In this document: positions 3 to 30,248 of the stretch, piece by piece
Position numbering within the stretch: the first letter of the stretch is position 1
Layout of the letters: every line of letters begins with the position of its first letter
DNA from: Pseudonocardiales bacterium
GTDB lineage: Bacteria; Actinomycetota; Actinomycetes; Mycobacteriales; Pseudonocardiaceae
DNA: 60,441 nt
Assembly: GCA_019241525.1 (NCBI GenBank)
Contig: JAFAWY010000046.1
Span: 1-60,441 of the forward strand
Direction: 5' to 3'
The notes under the pieces: generated by a model
What the model was told of the DNA's origin: nothing
The model's input: only the letters and a program-made list of their open reading frames with translations
The model's database searches: none
Translations under genes and position numbers: made by a program

Positions 3-1253
3 CGCAGCCACGTCAACACCGTGGCCCTCCCCATCCCAAGCGACGAAGAACTGCGGACCAGCCTCAACCGCTACCGCGAATTCCTTAAGATGGAATACCC
101 CCGCTACTACTGGAATCCCAACTATGAGCCGTGGCTGCCGGCCGACGTGCAGTTGCCCGGCCCCGGCGAGCACTTCCAAAGGGCACTTGCAAAGGCCGTA
201 TACGGCTCGGAGTACTACCAAAATCGTGAGATCACCCGCGCGCTCGATACCTTTGCCGAACACGTGCTCTCCAGCGAAACCACTCCACTGGTCGTCGTGG
301 TCTTCAGCCTAGCCGGCGGAGTGGGCAGTGGCATCGTCGTGGAAATCGCCCGACACCTGTCGAACATGAAGCTGGGACGCCGACCATGGGTTGTAGGAAT
401 CGGCGTGTTGCCGTGTGAGGGTGACCCACCGGAAACCTTCGACGGATCGCTCTTTCCGGTCATCAATGAGCTCGACTGCATGATCGATACCGAGAAGAAC
501 AAGGGCGTCATGGCGGTATGGGGGGACCTGTACAAAAATCCATTTACCGGTGGCTTTTTCGCCGTGCCCCAAGACGATGTGTTCGCCCTGACCGGAAACC
601 TTGCTGAGACCCACGCGGCCGTGGACCGGGGAATCGTCAACTTCATTGCTCGTAACGACTCGGTACATCTTTACGAGACCCTCAAGGCGCTCAACTGGCT
701 GTCGGTGCCTGCGAATGCATGGCATCCGGCGATCCGCGGCGAGCCCAATGCCCGCTGGATAAACGTGTTAACCACCCGCGAGGCGGCGAACGTCAGCAAG
801 CTGGACGCCTGCGGGCTGGTCAAGGGATTTGACACCGAATATGCCGAGGCGCGCATGCTCGGGCCAAAGGAGGCCTTCTCCGACCAAGTCGTGTCGCAGT
901 TGAAAGAGCAGATCGCGCAAGCGGCGAGCACTGCGGTGGAGCCAGTCGCGCTACAGCTAGAAGATCGCGGCGATCCCCTGATCACGGTGGTGATACCTCG
1001 TGTCAGCAAGTTAGACCTTGAGATCTTCTTCACCGCCCGCGACACCTATGACACCTTGAGTTGGGACGAAAAGCTGCTCAAGCACTCCTGGCTGCTTGAT
1101 CTGGGAGTGATGCTGTGCGAACCATCCATCCGCTTTGATGGCATGGGCGGTGAATGCATCTGGGGCTGCGCCTGCTGGGTCGTCGTACCCTATGCCGCCA
1201 TCCGTGGCGAGAAGCTGCCGGCTACGGCGCCCGCGGTGGCCGCTACCGGCTAA
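3..1253 (+). CDS. Tubulin-like protein, copy A (5' end outside window)
   Basis: A tubulin/FtsZ-fold protein of the bacterial Tubulin_2-like type; these are expected to bind a guanine nucleotide and possibly polymerise in the cytosol. The glycine-rich phosphate loop reads SLAGGVGSG near nt 309-332, followed by a helix like that of tubulins. The frame stays open to the left edge, and residues before the GTG at 21 still align with copy B (1690-3345), so the true start lies upstream. Copies A and B share long blocks (SLNR-REFLKMEYPRYYWNPN, MAVWGDLYKNPFTGGFFA, ECIWGCACWVVVP). Compared with copy B, this one has Val for Thr in the GGTGSG signature and a shorter middle. Cellular role unknown. Confidence 0.75.
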   Translation, partial: RSHVNTVALPIPSDEELRTSLNRYREFLKMEYPRYYWNPNYEPWLPADVQLPGPGEHFQRALAKAVYGSEYYQNREITRALDTFAEHVLSSETTPLVVVVFSLAGGVGSGIVVEIARHLSNMKLGRRPWVVGIGVLPCEGDPPETFDGSLFPVINELDCMIDTEKNKGVMAVWGDLYKNPFTGGFFAVPQDDVFALTGNLAETHAAVDRGIVNFIARNDSVHLYETLKALNWLSVPANAWHPAIRGEPNARWINVLTTREAANVSKLDACGLVKGFDTEYAEARMLGPKEAFSDQVVSQLKEQIAQAASTAVEPVALQLEDRGDPLITVVIPRVSKLDLEIFFTARDTYDTLSWDEKLLKHSWLLDLGVMLCEPSIRFDGMGGECIWGCACWVVVPYAAIRGEKLPATAPAVAATG

Positions 1254-1298
1254 GTCCGAACGCCGAATGCACCTAATCTGCCCGCGAGGAGGACCGTG

Positions 1299-1598
1299 AT
1301 GGCGTTGGACTGGGATATGGTCATCAAGCGTTACAAAGACGGTGCGCAAATAGCGCCGATCCCCGGATCGTCCACATTATCGGTAACCGGTGCCGATGAA
1401 GAAAAGGTTTATGTGAAACACCGGCTGTGGAAGGACAGCCTTTCACGAGCCAATTTGGAGAAGGCGGTGGCACTCCTCGAGGAAGGAAAAATGACACGGA
1501 AATCCGGTGATTTCGTTGACCAATATCGCACATTCGTTGCCGACGAGCGCCCAACAACTGCCGCCACCGTACTGAAGGACCTGGGCTTCCTCGAATGA
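1299..1598 (+). CDS. Small conserved protein paired with tubulin-like protein, copy A
   Basis: A 99-residue protein with no family I recognise. ATG 1299 is preferred over GTG 1296 because GAGGAGGA lies at 1286-1293. It is a clear paralog of the protein at 4071-4370: both start M-LDW, both have an LW-D-LSR--LEKA helix in the middle and both end in LGFLE. It starts 45 bases after tubulin-like copy A, so the two are probably co-transcribed. The predicted pattern is a short beta-rich N-terminus followed by helices. Third codon positions are less GC-biased than in the metabolic genes to the right. A partner or regulator of the tubulin-like protein is inferred from the repeated pairing only. Confidence 0.75.
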   Translation: MALDWDMVIKRYKDGAQIAPIPGSSTLSVTGADEEKVYVKHRLWKDSLSRANLEKAVALLEEGKMTRKSGDFVDQYRTFVADERPTTAATVLKDLGFLE

Positions 1599-1689
1599 CG
1601 TGACGATCCGGCGGCTTGCCGCCGGATCGCGCCCAGGCAAGTCAAGTTATATCGAATATCGAGGTGTACGAGGAGAGGAACTCAGGGTC

Positions 1690-3345
1690 ATGGGACTGTC
1701 TATGTACCACAGTGCGACGGGAAACCAGTCGCCTCACTGCATTCACGCACTCGGCATCGGCAAAACCGGCGCCTACATGGTTGAGGCACTCCTGCGTACC
1801 GGCGAGATCGAAGATTTGCTCGAAGACCACCGAGCCCGGTTCACCGGACTGGCGATCGACATCGGTGAACAGGATATGCACGAACTGCGTGAGTACGCTA
1901 ACGGCTTCAACGCCAGACTCGACGAGCGAGGAATCCCCCGGGAGCGCGCCCAGGTGCGCACCGTGGGCCTCGATGTCCCCAACCGCGAGGATCTTCAAAC
2001 CAGCCTCAACCGGTGGCGTGAATTCCTCAAGATGGAATACCCCCGTTATTATTGGAACCCCAACTACGAGCCGTGGCTACCGGCCGACCTAGAATTGCCC
2101 AAAGCCGGCGACTCCTTTCCGCGCGCGGTAGCTAAGGCCATCTATGGTCATTACTACTACAGCGAACCGAAAAGCTTGGAAAAGGAGCTTGATGCGTTCG
2201 TGCAAAGCATCAACGACACCAAGCTTCCGTCGATCGTGCTCGTCTTCTTCTCACTCGCCGGTGGCACTGGCAGCGGCATGGTGGTCGACCTCGCCAGACA
2301 CCTGTCCAATGTGAAGCTCGGCCGCCGGATCCCAGTAGTCGGTGTGGCCACCATGCCATTCTCGGGCGACGAGGACCACGCCGGAGGCAAGGCTGCCCTG
2401 TTCCCGACCATCAACGAGCTCGACTGCATGCTCGACGACAACAAAAACCAAGGCGTCATGGCAGTCTGGGGCGATCTCTACAAAAACCCGTTCACCGGCG
2501 GATTCTTCGCGCTGCCGCAGGAACACTCCTGGCAGCGGCTCGGCACCTACACCAAGACCGGCCAGCCAGCCATCCGAGATGCACTGCGCAAGGGCGTCAC
2601 ACGCAAATTTATCGACGATTCGTTCGCCCGGTTCATCGTCCAGGACTACGGACGGCTGCTGTTCAAACTGCTTCGGCCCGCAGGTTTCACCGGCGCACCA
2701 CACGAGCGAAACACCTCCGGAGACCGCGCCTGGACACTTTTTGACGTCGCCAAGTTCACCCACCCCGGAGTTGAGGTGCTCCCCGGCGAACCGCGCAGCA
2801 AGTGGCGCGAAGTTGTCAGCAAGTGGATCGGATACATCCCCCAGTGGTCCGGCCTCAAAGAGGGTTTCAAAACAGACTACATTGAGGCCCATACAGTCGC
2901 TCCGCGCGAACTATGGAACGACACCCTGCAAAAGAAGTTGGAAGAGACACTCCAGGTCTACCTCTTGCCGGGAGAGGACGGCACCCTGTACACAACGCAA
3001 GGAGAGTTCTTTGATGAACTCACTGCGTATTCAAGTATCATCATTCCGGGCGTTGCTAAGACCGACTTCCCGCTCTTCTACGAAGCCAGAGACGCCTACG
3101 ACCAGACCGAGTCGTGGGACGATAAGCTTCTTATGCACTCCTGGATTCTTGACCTCGGTGTCATGATGAGCGAGCAGTCGATCCGATTTGAGGGTATGGC
3201 TGGTGAGTGCATTTGGGGTTGCGCTTGCTGGGTCGTTGTTCCGCATGCGGCGATCAGGGGAGATGCCCCGGCATCGAAAGACCTTACGGAGGTGCAAGGC
3301 GCCCACATCGCACCCATGGTCCAAACCGTGGTGACGACTCCCTAA
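1690..3345 (+). CDS. Tubulin-like protein, copy B
   Basis: A 551-residue tubulin/FtsZ-fold protein. Residues about 20-28 (ALGIGKTGA) look like the N-terminal nucleotide-binding loop, and SLAGGTGSG near residue 190 is the canonical tubulin signature followed by its helix. The conserved C-terminal block near nt 3180-3260 contains ECIWGCACWVVVP. ATG 1690 is chosen because AGGAGAGG lies at 1670-1677; the frame is open further upstream, but that part has no site and no similarity to copy A. It follows the small protein at 1299 by 91 bases and is followed by a strong hairpin. Family knowledge suggests GTP binding and possible filament formation; partner and purpose are not known. Confidence 0.78.
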   Translation: MGLSMYHSATGNQSPHCIHALGIGKTGAYMVEALLRTGEIEDLLEDHRARFTGLAIDIGEQDMHELREYANGFNARLDERGIPRERAQVRTVGLDVPNREDLQTSLNRWREFLKMEYPRYYWNPNYEPWLPADLELPKAGDSFPRAVAKAIYGHYYYSEPKSLEKELDAFVQSINDTKLPSIVLVFFSLAGGTGSGMVVDLARHLSNVKLGRRIPVVGVATMPFSGDEDHAGGKAALFPTINELDCMLDDNKNQGVMAVWGDLYKNPFTGGFFALPQEHSWQRLGTYTKTGQPAIRDALRKGVTRKFIDDSFARFIVQDYGRLLFKLLRPAGFTGAPHERNTSGDRAWTLFDVAKFTHPGVEVLPGEPRSKWREVVSKWIGYIPQWSGLKEGFKTDYIEAHTVAPRELWNDTLQKKLEETLQVYLLPGEDGTLYTTQGEFFDELTAYSSIIIPGVAKTDFPLFYEARDAYDQTESWDDKLLMHSWILDLGVMMSEQSIRFEGMAGECIWGCACWVVVPHAAIRGDAPASKDLTEVQGAHIAPMVQTVVTTP

Positions 3346-3384
3346 CTGACTTCAGCCGCTCCTAGCCAGAACGCGGCAAAGAAT

Positions 3385-3421
3385 CGGAGCTGGCGGGCGT
3401 CGGGACCGCCCGCCAGCTCCG
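3385..3421 (+). terminator. Strong hairpin after tubulin-like copy B
   Basis: A perfect 15-bp stem (CGGAGCTGGCGGGCG and its complement) closes a 7-base loop about 40 bases after the stop of copy B. There is no long T run, as is common in actinomycete terminators. It separates the first half of the module from the sigma-like gene. Confidence 0.7.
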
Positions 3422-3537
3422 ATCCTAGTTGAGCATTTTGTTGATCACATAGTCTGCTCTGCACACGGTGCTTGCCGACTCTAAGGCAGACCTGCGCAGA
3501 AATTGTACCGAAAGACCCGATTGCGCGTGGGTGGCAA

Positions 3538-4038
3538 ATGAGCACACCAACCTCCCTACTACCGGAGTACGACGCCTGGATAAAACGCGTCTGCGCCACT
3601 TATGACGCAATCACCTATACTTGCCATCACCGGCTGGGCAACCGCCGGCTCGCCGAGCAGGTCAGCGTCCAAGTGGTGGCAGGTCTGCTGGCCAAGCCCA
3701 AGGTCTTTCGATACTTTGGACTGCCCTACTCGGGGCGTATCGCCCGGCTAGCCGAAGCCCGGCTCGCCGAGGCCCAAGAAGGCCGCCTGGCCGACGTAGG
3801 AAGCTGGCCGCATCTACTCCGGGAACTAATCACGTTGCCACCGGAGCATCAGGAAGTTCTCGTATTCACCTGCGTGCAAGGCGACGACGACGAGCACCTA
3901 GCTTCGAATTTGGGCTGCGACACGCAGACGGCAAAGATTCGCCGGCACAGCACCATGGAACTCATGCACGGGCTGGCGGCGTGCGCGCTGCCGCCCACAA
4001 TCCTGCACGAAGTCAACGATCACTCCATCGAAGATTAA
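3538..4038 (+). CDS. Divergent sigma-70/ECF-like protein
   Basis: A 166-residue protein. The C-terminal third (from about residue 100, LPPEHQEVLVFTCVQGD, then a helix-turn-helix-like LASNLGCDTQTAKIRRH) matches the pattern of sigma-70 region 4. The N-terminal half resembles a weak region 2 helix bundle. It would be a transcription initiation factor or a derived DNA-binding protein acting on this locus. ATG 3538 follows a weak purine-rich site (GGGTGG). It lies between tubulin-like copy B and small protein copy B, 32 bases before the latter. No anti-sigma gene is adjacent. Region 2 is poorly conserved, so core RNA polymerase binding is uncertain. Confidence 0.55.
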   Translation: MSTPTSLLPEYDAWIKRVCATYDAITYTCHHRLGNRRLAEQVSVQVVAGLLAKPKVFRYFGLPYSGRIARLAEARLAEAQEGRLADVGSWPHLLRELITLPPEHQEVLVFTCVQGDDDEHLASNLGCDTQTAKIRRHSTMELMHGLAACALPPTILHEVNDHSIED

Positions 4039-4070
4039 CAGTCATTGTCTACTATCTAAAGGAATCCAAC

Positions 4071-4370
4071 ATGCCGTTGGACTGGTCGGAAGTGCAACGC
4101 AGGTATGGCCATGGAGCGAGGATTCCCACCGTGGCCGGCGGCAAGACCCTCGAAATAACGTCGGTGGATGACGACAACGTTTACATCCGGCACCCCTTGT
4201 GGACCGATGCTCTGTCCCGAGAACACTTGGAAAAGGCCGCAAGGCTGATTGAGGAGGGCAGGATCACCCGGCACGCAGGTCTGTTTGCTGAGGAATACCG
4301 CGCCGAAGTCGCCGACGTTCGTGCAACCTCCGCGGCCCACGTGCTCAAAAACCTAGGCTTTCTCGAGTGA
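4071..4370 (+). CDS. Small conserved protein paired with tubulin-like protein, copy B
   Basis: A 99-residue paralog of the protein at 1299-1598: same length, same ends (M-LDW... LGFLE), similar charge pattern. ATG 4071 follows AAAGGAATCC. It lies 32 bases after the sigma-like gene, so it is probably in the same transcript. That both copies survive at equal length argues for function. No enzyme motif, signal peptide or membrane segment is visible. Function unknown; association with the tubulin-like proteins is inferred from gene order. Confidence 0.75.
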   Translation: MPLDWSEVQRRYGHGARIPTVAGGKTLEITSVDDDNVYIRHPLWTDALSREHLEKAARLIEEGRITRHAGLFAEEYRAEVADVRATSAAHVLKNLGFLE

Positions 4371-4392
4371 TACGGATAAACGTTATTGAGCA

Positions 4393-4875
4393 ATGATGCG
4401 TTATGAGCTGAGCGCTATCATCTCGACACAGTCAGTGCTTGGACTTATCTGCGCGCAGCATCAGAGCGCGCGTCTTGTTGCCCTGCCCGTTGCGGACATT
4501 GTGCTGGTTCCAGTTACCCAAGATCTGGTGCTGGAGTTAGATGAGACAGGTACGCGCGTCTCCGTAGAAACCGGCTTCTGGCAGCTTTCAGTAGGTGTTG
4601 AGGGGCTGGTGGTTGCTGGATCTGTCCGCGGGCGAATTGCTTACTTGGAAGCCGACTACGTCGGTCGAGAGGGTCGCCAGACGGCGGCCGTCTGGCAATC
4701 CGGCGAGACAATCTACGGTCCAATGATTCTCGGCAGAAATGAACCGTTCCCGGCGGAAGGTAACAGTCCGATCTGCGGCGCCCTACGCCACCTCGGAGTG
4801 ATTTCAGCTGGGCACCGCGACGAGTTCGTCGTCGCTGGACTTGGTCGCTTCCGACGCACAGTTGATTGGTGTTGA
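4393..4875 (+). CDS. Hypothetical protein at end of tubulin-like module
   Basis: A 160-residue protein not recognised as any family. The sequence alternates short hydrophobic strands (for example VLELDETGTRVSVETGFW, LVVAGSVRG), suggesting an all-beta fold. It starts 22 bases after the small protein, at ATG 4393 or 4396, without a clear ribosome site, so it may be translated by coupling. No signal peptide or membrane helix. It ends the + strand block; the next 1.3 kb has no intact gene. It could be a further component of the module or an unrelated neighbour. Confidence 0.5.
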   Translation: MMRYELSAIISTQSVLGLICAQHQSARLVALPVADIVLVPVTQDLVLELDETGTRVSVETGFWQLSVGVEGLVVAGSVRGRIAYLEADYVGREGRQTAAVWQSGETIYGPMILGRNEPFPAEGNSPICGALRHLGVISAGHRDEFVVAGLGRFRRTVDWC

Positions 4876-8672: not shown

Positions 8673-9449
8673 GTGGCTGACACGGTGCTTTATGAGCTGG
8701 ATGAACACGTCGCGACGATCACCTATCACCGACCGGACAAACTCAACGTCATTGATCAGCAGATGCGTGCGGAACTCAACGCCGCGTTCGCCGCGTTCCG
8801 CGACGACGAGGGCGCCTGGGTGGCGATCGTCACCGGGGCGGGCCGGGCGTTTTGCGCTGGGGCGGATATCCGGTCCTCGGGCAATCCTGCCGGCGAGTTC
8901 CCTGGCACGTTCTGGGAGAAGCCAACCGTCAACTCCTTTGAAAGCGGCTGGGAGATCTATAAGCCGGTGATTGCCGCAGTGAACGGGTACTGCCTGGGCT
9001 ACGGGCTGACCCTGGTCACCTGGTGTGACTTCGTCATCGCCAGCGAACAGGCGGTCTTTGGCTACCCGGAGGTACGGATCGGCACTCCCACGATCGTCGG
9101 AGCTATCCGGCTGCCGCAGCGGATCGGCTGGCAATACGCCATGGAGCTGCTCCTTACCGGCGAGCAGATCAACGCCCAGCGGGCCAAGGAAATCGGCCTC
9201 GCCGGCTGGATCGTGCCGCACTCATCGCTGCTCTCCACCGCTCGGGAGTTGGCCGACCGGCTGCTTGCCGCCGCCCCGCTGGCCGCCCGGGCCACCAAGG
9301 AGGTGGCCCGCCGCGCGCCCGACATGTCCGCTGTGGATGCGATCCGCTTCGGTGAGACGATGCGGCTGGTGACCAATGCCACACAGGACGCCGCGGAAGG
9401 TCGGGCCGCCGCGCTGGAGCGCCGGCCACCGGTATGGCGTGGCCGGTGA
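8673..9449 (+). CDS. Enoyl-CoA hydratase/isomerase family protein
   Basis: A 258-residue crotonase-fold protein, normally acting on CoA thioesters in fatty-acid or related catabolism. AFCAGADI near residue 58-65 is the first half of the oxyanion hole and NGYCLGYG near residue 107-114 the second. Pro/Gly-rich segments FGYPEVRIGTPTI and a C-terminal AxxATKEVARR helix fit the family. The position of the usual catalytic Glu in the EV-IG segment is kept, but exact reaction (hydration, isomerisation, ring opening) cannot be told. GTG 8673 is used. No beta-oxidation partner is adjacent. Confidence 0.85.
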   Translation: MADTVLYELDEHVATITYHRPDKLNVIDQQMRAELNAAFAAFRDDEGAWVAIVTGAGRAFCAGADIRSSGNPAGEFPGTFWEKPTVNSFESGWEIYKPVIAAVNGYCLGYGLTLVTWCDFVIASEQAVFGYPEVRIGTPTIVGAIRLPQRIGWQYAMELLLTGEQINAQRAKEIGLAGWIVPHSSLLSTARELADRLLAAAPLAARATKEVARRAPDMSAVDAIRFGETMRLVTNATQDAAEGRAAALERRPPVWRGR

Positions 9450-9727
9450 CAGCGTCCTTGCCAGCCAACACGCAGACGCAGCGCGGGTCATGTCCCTCCG
9501 GTCGCCGAAACTGACGGATCGCGCCGGCCTTGGCCGGCTCGGTGATCACCAGGCTTGCGCCCAGGTATGAGATCGGCGTCAGGGTCAGCTCGGTCATCCA
9601 TGGGGGTCTGTTCCTCCGCTGTCGGGCAGGTGTCGCACCGGACTCCTTCGGAACCTATGTTCGCGACAGCGAGACTCCTCGGGCACGATGACATGGTGAG
9701 CGGTTTCATGCTGACCTCGACGAGCAC

Positions 9728-14444: not shown

Positions 14445-17400
14445 ATGGCGCGGGAGATCGAGACCGAGGCGCAGGGGCCGGTCTGGGCGTTGGCCACCGT
14501 GCCGACCGGTGATGGTGAGCTGCTGGTGCGCGGCGGCGCCGACGGGATGGTGCGGCTGATCGACGCCGGCAGCGGCGAGACCGTGCGATCGCTGTCCGGC
14601 CATGCTGGACCGGTGCGCTCGCTGGCGGTGATCCCTGCCAATGGCGGACCCGGCGTGCTCGCCAGTGGTGGAGTTGATGGCACTGTGCGGATCTGGTCGC
14701 TAGGCGACTACGAGCTGCGTCACGAGGTGCGATTCCTGGACGGTGAGGTGTGGGCGCTGGTGCCGCTGCGCTGGGACGAGCGGATGTGCCTGGCCGGGAC
14801 CGGATCCGGTTCGCTGATCCAGCTGTGGGACCCGGCCTCAGGCCAGCAGCTACGCACCCTCGGCGAGACCGGCGGGCGAATCTGGGCCTTGACCCAGGTC
14901 GCAGTGAACGGCCGCGACTTGCTGGTCAGTGGTGCGGCAGACGGCACGATCCGGTTCTGGGATCCGCGCAGCGGCCAGGCAGTGCAGAAGACCAAGGCGC
15001 ATGAGTCGACGGTGTGGGCCCTGGCCGCGGTCCCCAGCTCAGGCGGTGAACTGCTGGCGAGCGGTGGCGCGGACGGCGTCGTGCGACTCTGGCGTCCCGG
15101 CTCGGCGCGCCCCGTCCGAACCTTCGCCGGGCACGCCAGTACGGTCCGGACGCTGGCGGTGGTCCCCACCGGTGACGGCGAGGTGCTGGCCAGCGGGAGC
15201 GCCGACTCCACAGTGCGGCTGTGGCGGCTCGACGGGTCCGACTCCGCCCCCGCGCACACCTTCAGCGGCCACTTCGGCGAGGTCTGGGCGCTTGCGCCGG
15301 TGCGGGTGACCGGCAAGATGCTCCTGGCCAGCGGCGGGGTCGACGGCACCATCCAGCTGGTCGACCCGACGACCTACCGGACCGAGAGCCTGTTGCTGGC
15401 CGGAGCCAGCACCGTGTGGGCACTGTCCTCGGTAACGCTGCCTGATCGGACACTTCTGGCCAGCGGCGGTGTGGACGGCACTATGCAGCTGACCAACCTG
15501 GACACCCGCATCGTCGAGCGGAACCTGCACGGGCACACCTCGACCATCCGCGCGCTGACCACGGTGCCGGCCGCCACCGGGTCCAGCTCCGCGGAATCGC
15601 CATTGGTGGCCAGCGGCGGCGCCGACGGCACCATCAGGGTGTGGCCGGTGGATGGCGACGACGCGAAGCGGGTGTTCACCGGCCACCGCGGCGAGGTGTG
15701 GGCGCTGGCGTCGACCGTGGTGGGCGACGGCCGCTGGCTGGTCAGCGGCGGCGCCGACGGTACCGTCCGGCTCTGGCCGGTGGACTCCGACGGCGTAGGC
15801 GTCGTGCTTGGCCACCACGAGGGGGAAGTGGGCGCGCTGGTCACGTTGGCCGGGCGCCATGTCGTGGCCAGCGGTGGCACGGACGGCAGGGTGCTGCTGT
15901 GGGAAACCGCCGTGCCGACGACCGGGGACAGCGGGCGGCTGGCGCAGCTGGAGCACACCGGCCGCGGCGGCGTCACCGCGCTCGCGGCCGTACCGTTCCC
16001 CACCGGGGTCCGGCTGGCGTGCGCACTGTCCAGCGGTGGTGTGACGCTGTGGGATCCGGATCGCGGGGAGCTGCTGGGTGAGCTGGCCGGCTCTCGCCGC
16101 CAGCAGGCACGGGCGCTGACCGCGATCCGCGTCGGCAAGCAGGTGCTGGTGGCCGCCGGCGCCCAGGACGGCGTGGTCCGGCTGTGGGATCCGCTCAGCC
16201 GGGAGTGCGTCGGCGAGCTGCGCGGCCACCAGGGCACGGTGCGCGCGCTCGCCTGGGCTGAGCTGACCGGCCGGCCGGTGCTGACCAGCGCGAGCGACGA
16301 CGGAGAGGTCCGGCTGTGGGATCTGTCGACCCGCAGCTACATCTCGACGGTGTCCAGCGGTGCGCGGCCGAGCACCCATATCGTCTCCGACCGGCCGAGC
16401 ACCGCCGACACGCTCGGCAGGCGCGCGATGGTCGATGCGCTGCAGGACTTCCTCACCGACCCCGACACCGCGCCGCCGATCGTCGTCGGCGTGCACGGGC
16501 CGTGGGGCTACGGCAAGACCAGCGTGCTCACCCAGCTCCGGGCCCGGCTGGACCCCGACCAGCCCGACGTCGGCTGGACGGAGCCGCGACGGCCGACCCA
16601 CGAACTGGTCTGGGACGACCCCAAAGACCGCGGCCGGCTCACGGCACGGGAAGCCTGGCGGCGCTTCGAGCGACGCAAGGCGCCGATGACCGACAGGCTG
16701 GGCTGCCGGCTCAAGGAGCTCGACCTCGACCGGCCACGCGAGCGCACCCGCATCTCGGTCTGGTTCAGCCCGTGGATGTATCCCACCAGAGAGGAGCTGT
16801 GGGCCGGGTTGGCCCGGGAACTGCTCACCAGCATCACCCACCGGCTGCCGCCGGAGGACCGCGAGAAGCTCTGGTTTGACCTCAACCTGCGGCGTACCGA
16901 CCCGGAGGTGATGCGCCGGCGGATTTTGAAGTCGTACATCCCGCGGTCACCGGCGGGGATCGCGGTGGCAGTGCTGGCCCTAGCGGTCGTCGTCGCCGCG
17001 CTGGTCGGGGAGGCGTATCTGCTGTGGAGCCAAGCCCTGCAACCGGTGCTCGCCGGGCTGCTGGTCGGCTTCCCGCTGATTGGCCTGCTCGCCAAGGTGG
17101 CGTGGACGGCGTTACGCGGCACGGTCAAGCACGTGCTACCTCCCGAGGTGCTCAGCGGCCCGGCCGGGGCGCCCTCGCACGACCGCAAACGTTCCTCCGA
17201 GGCTCGCGATCCGCTGTACGAAAGCGAGGCCGGCTACCTCTATCTGATCCAGCACGACGTCCGGCACATCGTGCGGCTGGCCACCGCGGAAGAACCGATC
17301 GTGGTGTTCATCGACGACCTGGATCGCTGCTCCTCGGAGATCGTCAGCTCGACCATCGAAGCGATCAACCTGTTCATGAACAATGCGTTCGGGGAGTGCA

Positions 17401-18287
17401 TCTTCGTCGTCGCCCTCGACCCGGCCACTATCGCGGCACACCTGGAGGTCAGCCACGATGCCATCCGTCGCCGGATCGAGGAGCGACCGGTCACCTACGC
17501 TCACCTCGGCGACATCGGCTGGCGGTTTATGGAGAAGATCGTTGATCTGCCGATCCGGCTGCCGCGACTTCCCGACGAGGCCGTGAGCGCGTACGCCGCC
17601 GCGCTGGTCACCCCGGCCCCTGCACCCCGGCGCAACGGCACACCGACCACCGCAGCGCAACCGGCGGTGCCGTCGCCGGCTCGGGAGCGGGCCACCGCGG
17701 CGCAGCCACCGAACGTGTCGCCGCCGCCCGGTGCGGCGGCGCTGCCGGAGCCGTCCCCGTCCCCCACCGGCAGCACTGCGGCCAGCACGGTGACGGCGGC
17801 GTGGCCGCCGTCACCGGTCGAGGCGATCACCATTGCAACTACGGCCGCCGTGGCGGACACCGTCGAGCGGATCGAGACGATCAGGGACGTGTCCGACGCA
17901 CTGCGCGACGCCATGCTGGAGCTCCCCCGGCGCAACCCACGGGAGATGAAGCGCTTCCTGAACCTGTGGCGGTTTTACCTGGGCGTGGAAAGCCGCGCTG
18001 ACCAGCTACCGTCCGACGTCGAGGGCATGGTGGTACACGGCAAGTCGGTCGCCCGATTGGTGCAGATCATGCTGCGCTGGCCGAAGTACCTGGACCGGCT
18101 GGGTGAGCTGCACGCCGGCCGGACCGTACTGGCTGATCTGCTGGCCGCTGCCGACGACCCCGAATCGTGGCGCGTGGCACTCCATCAGGCAGGCATGGCC
18201 TCGGCTGAGGCCGAGCTGACCTCCCTGCGGGAGCTACTCGCCGGCAGCGACCCAGAGCTGGCGGAGCTGTCCAAGCGCTACCTGTAG
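14445..18287 (+). CDS. WD40-repeat / KAP P-loop NTPase fusion protein
   Basis: A 1280-residue protein. Residues about 10-645 hold 14 WD40 repeats, each ending in a strand like LASGGVDGTVRIW or LVSGGADGTVRLW, enough for two seven-bladed propellers. Then a KAP-family NTPase: Walker A GPWGYGKTSV near residues 685-694, a conserved WFSPWMYP, two hydrophobic segments at about 836-861 and 868-889, and Walker B VVFIDDLDRCSSE near 952-964. Helices inserted between Walker A and B are typical of KAP, which is thus membrane-associated with the ATPase in the cytosol. A Pro/Ala-rich linker (about 1065-1140) precedes a C-terminal helical part. ATG 14445 follows GGGAGCTGGA. Role: sensing or scaffold by analogy; unknown. 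Confidence 0.88.
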   Translation: MAREIETEAQGPVWALATVPTGDGELLVRGGADGMVRLIDAGSGETVRSLSGHAGPVRSLAVIPANGGPGVLASGGVDGTVRIWSLGDYELRHEVRFLDGEVWALVPLRWDERMCLAGTGSGSLIQLWDPASGQQLRTLGETGGRIWALTQVAVNGRDLLVSGAADGTIRFWDPRSGQAVQKTKAHESTVWALAAVPSSGGELLASGGADGVVRLWRPGSARPVRTFAGHASTVRTLAVVPTGDGEVLASGSADSTVRLWRLDGSDSAPAHTFSGHFGEVWALAPVRVTGKMLLASGGVDGTIQLVDPTTYRTESLLLAGASTVWALSSVTLPDRTLLASGGVDGTMQLTNLDTRIVERNLHGHTSTIRALTTVPAATGSSSAESPLVASGGADGTIRVWPVDGDDAKRVFTGHRGEVWALASTVVGDGRWLVSGGADGTVRLWPVDSDGVGVVLGHHEGEVGALVTLAGRHVVASGGTDGRVLLWETAVPTTGDSGRLAQLEHTGRGGVTALAAVPFPTGVRLACALSSGGVTLWDPDRGELLGELAGSRRQQARALTAIRVGKQVLVAAGAQDGVVRLWDPLSRECVGELRGHQGTVRALAWAELTGRPVLTSASDDGEVRLWDLSTRSYISTVSSGARPSTHIVSDRPSTADTLGRRAMVDALQDFLTDPDTAPPIVVGVHGPWGYGKTSVLTQLRARLDPDQPDVGWTEPRRPTHELVWDDPKDRGRLTAREAWRRFERRKAPMTDRLGCRLKELDLDRPRERTRISVWFSPWMYPTREELWAGLARELLTSITHRLPPEDREKLWFDLNLRRTDPEVMRRRILKSYIPRSPAGIAVAVLALAVVVAALVGEAYLLWSQALQPVLAGLLVGFPLIGLLAKVAWTALRGTVKHVLPPEVLSGPAGAPSHDRKRSSEARDPLYESEAGYLYLIQHDVRHIVRLATAEEPIVVFIDDLDRCSSEIVSSTIEAINLFMNNAFGECIFVVALDPATIAAHLEVSHDAIRRRIEERPVTYAHLGDIGWRFMEKIVDLPIRLPRLPDEAVSAYAAALVTPAPAPRRNGTPTTAAQPAVPSPARERATAAQPPNVSPPPGAAALPEPSPSPTGSTAASTVTAAWPPSPVEAITIATTAAVADTVERIETIRDVSDALRDAMLELPRRNPREMKRFLNLWRFYLGVESRADQLPSDVEGMVVHGKSVARLVQIMLRWPKYLDRLGELHAGRTVLADLLAAADDPESWRVALHQAGMASAEAELTSLRELLAGSDPELAELSKRYL

Positions 18288-28593: not shown

Positions 28594-28769
28594 GCCGCGC
28601 GAGCTCGGAGCTCTGAATCCGGGGCTCAACCAATTTGTCGGGCATGGGCCCGGAAAACTTCCGCCGTCGCATCCGATGACCGCAACCGCCGCCTTCGCGA
28701 CCATGGTCGAGACCGTGCCAGATATGGGCTCGATGGTGACCTTCAATGGCGAACAAGGAGGTGGACCCA

Positions 28770-30248
28770 TTGAAGATGCTGCCGTTCGCAGACCTGGATC
28801 TGCCACCCGGACGCGTCATCGAGTGGATGGTAAGACCTTCTTCAAAACACCATCCGACAATGACCGTGCTGGAGCACACCAAACGCCCGTCCTTTAGCCA
28901 GGAACTTTATTATCATCTGATCGATTGGCAATCTCGTTTGCATCCCGGCCGGCTTGCCGTCTGGATCGCAGCAACGTTCGAAATCCCCGGAAGGGTCGAT
29001 CTGGACGGCCTGAGGGATGCGTTTCGCCAGCTTCTTGTGCGCCATGAAGTGCTGCGGACGGAGTTTCGGATGCAGCCTGACGCCGAGGATACCCACGGAA
29101 TTTTTGGACTTCTTCAGTGCGATGTGCTGGATCCCGATGGCGTGGTCCTGGAAGAGAGCGAGGTCGGGATATTCAACCGGGTCGAGTCGCTGCGCGAGGC
29201 GTTGATCGAACGGATCGACAAGACGATCGACACCAACAACGGTCCGGTGATCTTGATGGGGGTCGTGTTCGGCGCGCAACGGTCGGTCGGGTACATCGTG
29301 TGTGATCACCTCGTGACCGATGGGTTCTCGTGCGCCATCAAGGCTCATGAACTTGCCGTGATCTACGAGGCCACGGTGACCGGCGCGCCGGTGGAATTAC
29401 CAGAGGTCGGCAGCTACCTGGACTACGGACGGCAGGAATACGTCGAGACCGAAACTGTCCAGCCAAACGATCCGCGCATCGAACTGTGGCGCGGGTTCGT
29501 GGCCCGCAACGGCCATGTGTTCACCGAGTTTCCGATCGAATTGAACACGAAGAAGGGTGAATGGCACCCGGCAACGGTCGACGTCGTGCAACTGTTGAAC
29601 GCTTCCCAGGCTGAGGAGTTCGAGCGGCTGTGTTGCGCGCGCAACGCCCGTGTGGTGTCCGGGCTGCTGGCGGTCAACAGCATCGCGCTGCACGAGATTG
29701 GGGGACGCGGCGTGCTGCGCACCGTGATGCCGGTCGCGCAGCGCCGAGCGCCGCAGTGGCGCAACGCCGTTGGCTGGTTCGTAAGTCTCGTCCCGCTAGA
29801 AGTGCCTATGGCCGGTATCGACAAGTTTGCCGATGTGCTGGCCAGCGCCCATGCATCGTTTCGCAGCGCACTGGCGGCGGCCGACTTACCGCTCGCCGCG
29901 CTGTTCCTGCACCTGGGCACGCAATACCTGCCAATCAACGGATTCTTCGATCTCAAGCCGCAGGCCCACTTTTCGTATATCGACTACCGGAAGCTCCCCG
30001 GCGCCCAGGACGAGAAAAAACGACAGACCACCGCCCTTCGCGTCACGAATACCTGCGATGCCCGCACCTGGTATTTCCGCACCCATGAGGGGATCTTCAT
30101 GTTCAACAATTTCATCGACACCCCCCGCGCCCGCGAAGTAGTCGTTGCATACGAGGCCAGCGTCGAGCGTGTGCTGACTGAACTGCTGAGCTCCAACCCG
30201 GCGCGGTGCGCGCCGGAAGCGCCGGGTGCCACGTTCCATGCGGCGTGA
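28770..30248 (+). CDS. Condensation-domain acyltransferase-like protein (PapA-type)
   Basis: A stand-alone condensation-domain protein of about 490 residues. The motif HLVTDG near residue 178-183 is the HxxxDG active site used for acyl transfer in non-ribosomal peptide and polyketide-associated (PapA) enzymes. The N-terminus (LPFADLDLPPGR) is followed by the substrate-channel helix typical of the fold. No carrier protein, adenylation or ketosynthase domain is adjacent. TTG 28770 is 8 bases after AAGGAGG and preferred; ATG 28776 and ATG 28746 are alternatives. The usual DFGWG motif is not clear, so the acceptor-side function is uncertain. Confidence 0.7.
   Translation: MKMLPFADLDLPPGRVIEWMVRPSSKHHPTMTVLEHTKRPSFSQELYYHLIDWQSRLHPGRLAVWIAATFEIPGRVDLDGLRDAFRQLLVRHEVLRTEFRMQPDAEDTHGIFGLLQCDVLDPDGVVLEESEVGIFNRVESLREALIERIDKTIDTNNGPVILMGVVFGAQRSVGYIVCDHLVTDGFSCAIKAHELAVIYEATVTGAPVELPEVGSYLDYGRQEYVETETVQPNDPRIELWRGFVARNGHVFTEFPIELNTKKGEWHPATVDVVQLLNASQAEEFERLCCARNARVVSGLLAVNSIALHEIGGRGVLRTVMPVAQRRAPQWRNAVGWFVSLVPLEVPMAGIDKFADVLASAHASFRSALAAADLPLAALFLHLGTQYLPINGFFDLKPQAHFSYIDYRKLPGAQDEKKRQTTALRVTNTCDARTWYFRTHEGIFMFNNFIDTPRAREVVVAYEASVERVLTELLSSNPARCAPEAPGATFHAA

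Follow-up and report, generated by a model that had tools for sequence, protein, structure and literature searches.

A tubulin-like gene block of a Pseudonocardiales bacterium as a very probable acetonitrile-hydratase-type operon

The first ~4.9 kb of a 60,441-nucleotide stretch of DNA from a Pseudonocardiales bacterium (positions 1–60,441 of contig JAFAWY010000046.1, assembly GCA_019241525.1; we call the whole stretch the window) hold six plus-strand genes, encoding two tubulin-like proteins, two 99-residue paralogues, a sigma-like protein and a 160-residue protein (Table 1). We conclude that they very probably form an acetonitrile-hydratase-type nitrile hydratase operon of variant composition, in which the tubulin-like AnhA and AnhB would be the cobalt enzyme and the first small protein, AnhE, its cobalt-loading helper. 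What appears to emerge is a nitrile-degrading metal enzyme built from a cell-skeleton protein family. The list of open reading frames (ORFs) places all six genes where the original prediction had them, and none is a chance ORF, because other genomes carry homologues of all six, arranged alike. The contig begins inside anhA, whose 5′ end is missing (listed as anhA′), and the absent N-terminal part has no separate match elsewhere in the assembly. None of the six proteins has an NCBIfam match above cut-off. A phage origin was considered and rejected, with no match among phage records.

Relationship to the RHA1 enzyme and spread of the locus

A tblastn search of plasmids with window AnhB returned 15 records (12 Rhodococcus, 2 Shinella, 1 Agrobacterium), in which these proteins are annotated merely as tubulin-like or hypothetical. 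Five records were opened, and four hold a large, a ~100-residue and a large gene in that order; the opened Shinella record has an AnhB fragment and a shorter paralogue, and the small gene is absent. On pRHL2 of Rhodococcus jostii RHA1 the trio is preceded by an aliphatic amidase (passing the aliphatic amidase model NF009802) and followed by a small helix–turn–helix gene and then a transporter annotated as a nickel transporter, a NicO protein (PF03824). The window A, small and B proteins match this trio in the same order (identities in Table 1). Computed masses of the RHA1 proteins are 11.09 kDa for the small one and 55.8 and 63.0 kDa for the large ones; the published sizes for RHA1 acetonitrile hydratase are said to be 11.1 kDa for AnhE and 56 and 63 kDa for the subunits.

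The excerpted literature gives the RHA1 acetonitrile hydratase the gene order alpha–AnhE–beta (PMC3511329, PMC3680314, PMC7193024) and describes AnhE as a metallochaperone for cobalt (PMC3511329, PMC3680314). We strongly infer that the pRHL2 trio, RHA1_RS41530/41535/41540, is the published anhA–anhE–anhB of this cobalt enzyme. The window genes share both the gene order and the homology of all three proteins, so that the original prediction, which knew of no described system with this composition, is corrected here: the alpha–AnhE–beta arrangement is that of acetonitrile hydratase in the excerpts of PMC3511329 and PMC7193024. Homology, gene order, co-occurrence and motif pattern were computed here, and the enzyme, its cobalt and the role of AnhE come from papers on RHA1; activity of the window copy, its cobalt ligands and the roles of the last three genes are predictions. 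The window locus differs from that of RHA1 in its three additional downstream genes (a second anhE, a sigma-like gene and the gene for the 160-residue protein), and its contig carries no amidase.

Scanning genome contigs identified 63 loci, among them loci of Actinobacteria, Cyanobacteria, Proteobacteria and Firmicutes. Leaving aside four archaeal loci (L075–L078, Tubulin_2 relatives without Cys motif or AnhE hit) and L079 (no hits) gives the set of 58 used below. The order A–E–B is kept in 56 of these, the exceptions being L061 (B–A–E–E) and L073, where the contig ends inside A. Amidase-like genes are found in 38/58 loci and a cobalt/nickel gene (counted as a CobW-type GTPase, CbiMNQ, CbtA or NicO) in 44/58; the GTPase of the Agrobacterium locus, for example, is a CobW protein (PF02492, 4.4e-58). 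Among the 28 loci with full flanks the counts are 20 and 21, against 0 and 1 in 20 evenly spaced 20-kb control stretches, which come from the chromosome of one relative alone, whereas the 28 loci come from many genomes. The nearest relatives (L017, L019, L020 and L021) have the amidase directly upstream. AmiC-like matches (24–28% identity) are probably generic binding proteins and were not counted as evidence.

The small proteins go with the large ones. The window's family was covered by 346 genomes: a strong AnhB match occurs in 23, each of which also has AnhE; the other 323 yield one weak, partial AnhE hit (G610), and five of them have weak matches to tubulin-like frames of ~1050–1180 residues without AnhE. 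The second small protein has matches in 13 plasmid records, each of which is also one of the 15 that match window AnhB. Homologues of the small proteins thus keep company with tubulin-like genes and are not found mostly without them, in agreement with the pairing that the original prediction proposed.

A tubulin-related half and a predicted cobalt site

The tubulin signature reported in the original prediction holds up as homology. Six of eight A/B proteins scanned singly pass a Pfam Tubulin or Tubulin_2 cut-off, including window AnhB (Table 1), RHA1 AnhA (Tubulin_2, 32.5 bits against 27, residues 51–243) and RHA1 AnhB (Tubulin GTPase domain, 33.5 bits against 33); the truncated window AnhA falls below the Tubulin_2 cut-off (22.4 bits, E 8.5e-5). 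Against the PDB, a profile of 110 A/B sequences gives 43 hits at E 10 or below, 42 of them FtsZ or tubulin. Three lie below 0.01 (best 4.5e-4), and the alignment of these three takes in the T1 and T4 regions in order. The T1 pattern is present in 110/110 sequences and a T4-like loop in 88/110. The T7 catalytic loop (N-x-D-x-x-D/E), which drives GTP hydrolysis in FtsZ and tubulin filaments, has scattered matches in 9/110 A/B sequences as against 19/19 FtsZ. On this sequence evidence the N-terminal half of A and B is tubulin-related, the GTP-hydrolysis loop of the filaments was not found, and its loss makes FtsZ-like GTP-driven polymerisation unlikely. All A sequences fall on one side of a branch with support 99; by this tree A and B are old paralogues. 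Among the literature matches listed, no paper ties acetonitrile hydratase to tubulin, and those naming both tubulin and nitrile hydratase concern other subjects, judging by title and abstract. We know of no other tubulin-superfamily member that catalyses anything except nucleotide hydrolysis.

The second feature of the family is a pair of conserved stretches, a Cys motif E-C-x3-C-A-C-W near the C terminus and a block REFLKxEYPRYYWNPN, both present in both window subunits (Table 1). Every one of the 89 motif-bearing subunits has the three cysteines and the same residue at ten positions of the second block. In the 21 motif-less subunits the block decays (second Tyr of YYW in 2/21, last Asn in 1/21), with G22, G24, G27 and G194 kept at 97% or more with or without the Cys motif. 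Once plasmid copies are added (131 sequences), motif and block agree in 130, the exception, L073, ending before the motif, and the block is kept in 96/96 subunits with the motif. The 52 complete A/B pairs have the three cysteines in both subunits (31), in B alone (13) or in A alone (8), and never in neither; six loci (L018, L019, L022, L039, L070 and L073) are left out because their A or B is incomplete, AnhA being a fragment in L019 and L039. The site is found in AnhA alone in the Rhodococcus plasmid loci as read, including RHA1, whose AnhB lacks it where window AnhB bears it in full, and in AnhB alone in many Proteobacteria. Four motif changes are required by the tree, one presumably due to the truncated L073 row.

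These patterns suggest a mechanism. AnhA and AnhB would form a heteromeric enzyme converting small aliphatic nitriles to amides, its cobalt delivered by AnhE and held by a Cys-rich claw, the C-terminal E-C-x3-C-A-C, together with the second block; the window enzyme would carry the full predicted site in both subunits. The T1 and T4 nucleotide loops are retained, perhaps for structure or regulation. The amide would pass to an aliphatic amidase, the gene directly upstream in close relatives, which here would fall off the contig.

The same data make it likely that a tubulin/FtsZ-superfamily heterodimer became a cobalt metalloenzyme, losing the polymerisation-linked GTPase loop while a nitrile-hydratase-like Cys claw arose in its C-terminal half independently of the classical fold. 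One subunit would then have decayed to a pseudo-enzyme in about three lineages, and the Pseudonocardiaceae would have retained the two sites while gaining a second metallochaperone and a sigma resembling the extracytoplasmic function (ECF) type.

Most actinobacterial AnhA proteins (for example those of L009, L021 and L031) also have an N-terminal His-rich tail (HDHxHDH-like), perhaps for metal capture, which is absent from Rubrobacter and the other phyla listed.

Weighing the assignment against alternatives

Several points weigh against the assignment or parts of it. Equating the pRHL2 locus with the published anh genes rests on order, size and context. According to the excerpted PMC7193024 the RHA1 enzyme contains Co, Cu and Zn, and PMC7329996, likewise in excerpt, states in general terms that C-x-L-C-S-C is found in all known nitrile hydratase alpha subunits and that maturation of the RHA1 enzyme is by subunit swapping; these statements of PMC7329996 are contradicted by the RHA1 AnhA protein as read and by the excerpted PMC3511329. 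The fold assignment depends on the scores that Pfam and HMMER give to the N-terminal half: two of the eight A/B proteins (truncated window A and the B of L035) pass no tubulin cut-off, and hhalign of the A/B profile with 19 FtsZ sequences is weak (P 0.0059 over 41 columns, T4 region only, tool probability 6%; 12 other families give P values of at least 0.1, and the reversed profile gives 0.24). Under independent losses, the chance that no pair would be without the motif on both sides is 0.08, with kinship uncorrected, and the block follows the motif in three of four independent tree pairs (the fourth showing no difference), which is not significant (sign test, p 0.25). In 20/58 loci the stretch examined has no amidase, some amidase matches (29–50% identity) could belong to other members of the nitrilase superfamily, and the window's own assembly, where the contig starts inside anhA, yielded no close amidase.

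A variant of the proposal, which we regard as rather unlikely, is that GTP regulates or assembles the hydratase, AnhA and AnhB retaining nucleotide binding and activity being gated by tubulin-like dimers or short protofilaments. The glycines G22, G24, G27 and G194, conserved irrespective of the Cys motif, speak for it; the missing T7 loop speaks against it, and nucleotide goes unmentioned in the excerpted published accounts of the enzyme. Also unlikely, in our view, is a same-family enzyme acting on another substrate (another small nitrile, a cyanide-like compound or a different hydration), with a metal other than cobalt in some lineages. It would suit the broad distribution across Actinobacteria, Cyanobacteria, Proteobacteria and Firmicutes, the 8/28 full-flank loci in which no amidase is seen, the three metals of the excerpted PMC7193024 and the presence of two classical nitrile hydratase alpha genes in the source genome. 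The invariance of the site in 89/89 motif-bearing subunits, the cobalt uptake or CobW genes of 21/28 full-flank loci and the upstream amidase of the nearest relatives all count against it. The filament of the original prediction, two tubulin-like subunits with a small partner protein and their own sigma factor, accounts for the superfamily homology of both large proteins, their T1 and T4 loops and the obligate pairing with a small protein, but is very improbable given the missing T7 loop, a C-x3-C-A-C motif and second block lost together, frequent amidase, cobalt-uptake and CobW neighbours, and homology to a presumed characterised enzyme.

The acetonitrile-hydratase-type assignment also separates the block from better-known systems. 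Classical Co/Fe nitrile hydratases (PF02979 alpha) would catalyse the same reaction and have a Cys-rich metal motif of similar style; the window enzyme differs in its ~55–63 kDa tubulin-superfamily subunits and in the Cys spacing of C-x3-C-A-C, and its proteins have no NHase_alpha (PF02979) match among hits up to E 1. FtsZ, tubulin and TubZ GTPases share the T1 and T4 signatures with A and B, which have lost T7, gained a metal motif and lie among enzyme genes. The FtsZl1 and FtsZl2 families of Makarova and Koonin 2010 (PMC2875224, here in excerpt) are likewise divergent FtsZ-superfamily proteins that stand beside an ordinary FtsZ. VWA genes lie near many FtsZl1 genes, as near some anh loci, but a coiled-coil domain and a proposed role at the membrane set FtsZl1 apart, FtsZl2 retains all loops including T7 and lacks associated genes, and the excerpted account names no nitrile, amidase or AnhE context.

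Three observations concern related genes. Contigs C84 (91095–91628) and C89 (20369–20926) of the source genome each carry a classical nitrile hydratase alpha gene, so that this genome may hold three nitrile hydratase systems. Eight loci (L010, L042, L046, L049, L052, L053, L066 and L072) have a third tubulin-like paralogue of 382–451 residues without the Cys motif, with CbbQ and VWA genes in the same stretch in all except L066. The archaeal proteins of L075–L078 are Tubulin_2-like, ~880 residues long in three cases and cut by the contig end in one, with a long extra region and neither cobalt motif nor AnhE hit; these distant relatives of the enzyme may be true cytoskeletal proteins.

The downstream extension and the window

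The ECF-like sigma gene, the second anhE and the gene for the 160-residue protein are, on comparative evidence, a conserved downstream extension of the operon, probably regulating the cluster or assisting cobalt loading. A sigma gene of this type lies near the operon in 26/58 loci, in Pseudonocardiaceae and also in Rubrobacter and Mycobacteriales loci. The window protein itself has no Pfam match; its divergent sigma character, already noted in the original prediction, is suggested by the family, 7 of whose 21 members match Sigma70_r4_2 (best 8.1e-8) and whose profile aligns with the ECF sigma factor 6dxo over positions 18–148 (E 3e-6). Fifteen members of the family of the 160-residue, beta-rich protein were compared with Pfam, with no match at E 0.1 or below, and the PDB gave a single match (E 0.39).

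A second AnhE occurs in 19/58 loci, of which L061 belongs to another clade; the window copy shares 43.4% identity with RHA1 AnhE and 49.5% with the Agrobacterium protein that occupies the AnhE position. The extra actinobacterial AnhE proteins form one clade of 19 (support 87, not starred). All 31 core AnhE proteins of Actinobacteria sit together in a starred set, and the clade of 19 lies outside it. The second AnhE therefore looks old, on a weak tree of 108 columns. A recent duplication of a two-gene module was rejected, with A on one side of its branch and the second AnhE outside the core set; the repeated tubulin-plus-small-protein unit of the original prediction gives way to old A/B paralogues and a small protein from a separate clade. 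That a second AnhE accompanies two intact sites was likewise dismissed as a general rule, since Cyanobacteria, several Proteobacteria and Rubrobacter have both sites and a single AnhE between A and B. A third AnhE-like clade (14 rows, support 100) is found in Pseudonocardiaceae anh loci (L014 at 9113–9466, L021 and L023–L034), its aligned rows sharing a C-S/T-R stretch near the end.

The anhB ORF opens at 1600, and the Met at 1690 agrees with homologues. The hairpin behind anhB, which lies in a stretch (3346–3537) whose fold has z = -2.9, is a possible transcription terminator, with no clear T run after it; given its position, the three genes that follow may be transcribed separately. Further along, the window encodes a 1280-residue protein in which numerous WD40 repeats precede a KAP-family P-loop NTPase region (14445–18287) and a condensation-domain protein (28746–30248).

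Table 1. Features of the anh block, with positions numbered from the first nucleotide of the window
Feature	Position	Strand	Remarks
anhA′ (nitrile hydratase alpha-type, tubulin-superfamily subunit)	3..1253	+	416 aa present; 58.8% identity to the first tubulin-like RHA1 protein over 403 aa
Predicted active-site block REFLKMEYPRYYWNPN in AnhA	75..122	+	Kept in Cys-motif subunits, lost along with the motif
Predicted cobalt motif C-I-W-G-C-A-C in AnhA	1155..1175	+	Conserved in the family
anhE (putative cobalt metallochaperone)	1299..1598	+	99 aa, 11.09 kDa; 67.7% identity to its RHA1 counterpart in the AnhE position
Short perfect inverted repeat in the anhE–anhB gap	1605..1628	+	Seen by direct reading of the sequence
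anhB (nitrile hydratase beta-type, tubulin-superfamily subunit)	1690..3345	+	551 aa; 56.9% identity with the second large protein of RHA1; Tubulin_2 score 29.8 bits (cut-off 27)
Predicted active-site block REFLKMEYPRYYWNPN in AnhB	2017..2064	+	Kept in Cys-motif subunits, lost along with the motif
Predicted cobalt motif C-I-W-G-C-A-C in AnhB	3208..3228	+	Conserved in the family
Perfect 17-bp hairpin with 7-base loop, 3′ of anhB	3383..3423	+	Self-match and sequence
Divergent ECF sigma-like protein	3538..4038	+	ORF opens at 3472, Met at 3538; family matches to Sigma70_r4_2 and 6dxo
Second AnhE paralogue	4071..4370	+	99 aa; 53.5% identical to window AnhE
Conserved protein, last gene of the cluster	4393..4875	+	160 aa; homologues in 16/58 anh loci

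Our analysis proposes a function for a branch of tubulin-like proteins, and would place an unusual nitrile hydratase in the tubulin superfamily with predicted cobalt ligands. What gives it scientific weight is the tubulin homology together with the predicted cobalt site, neither seen in print among the matches listed. If a structure confirms the fold, the tubulin superfamily can host metal catalysis, and nitrile hydration by a Cys claw would have evolved twice.

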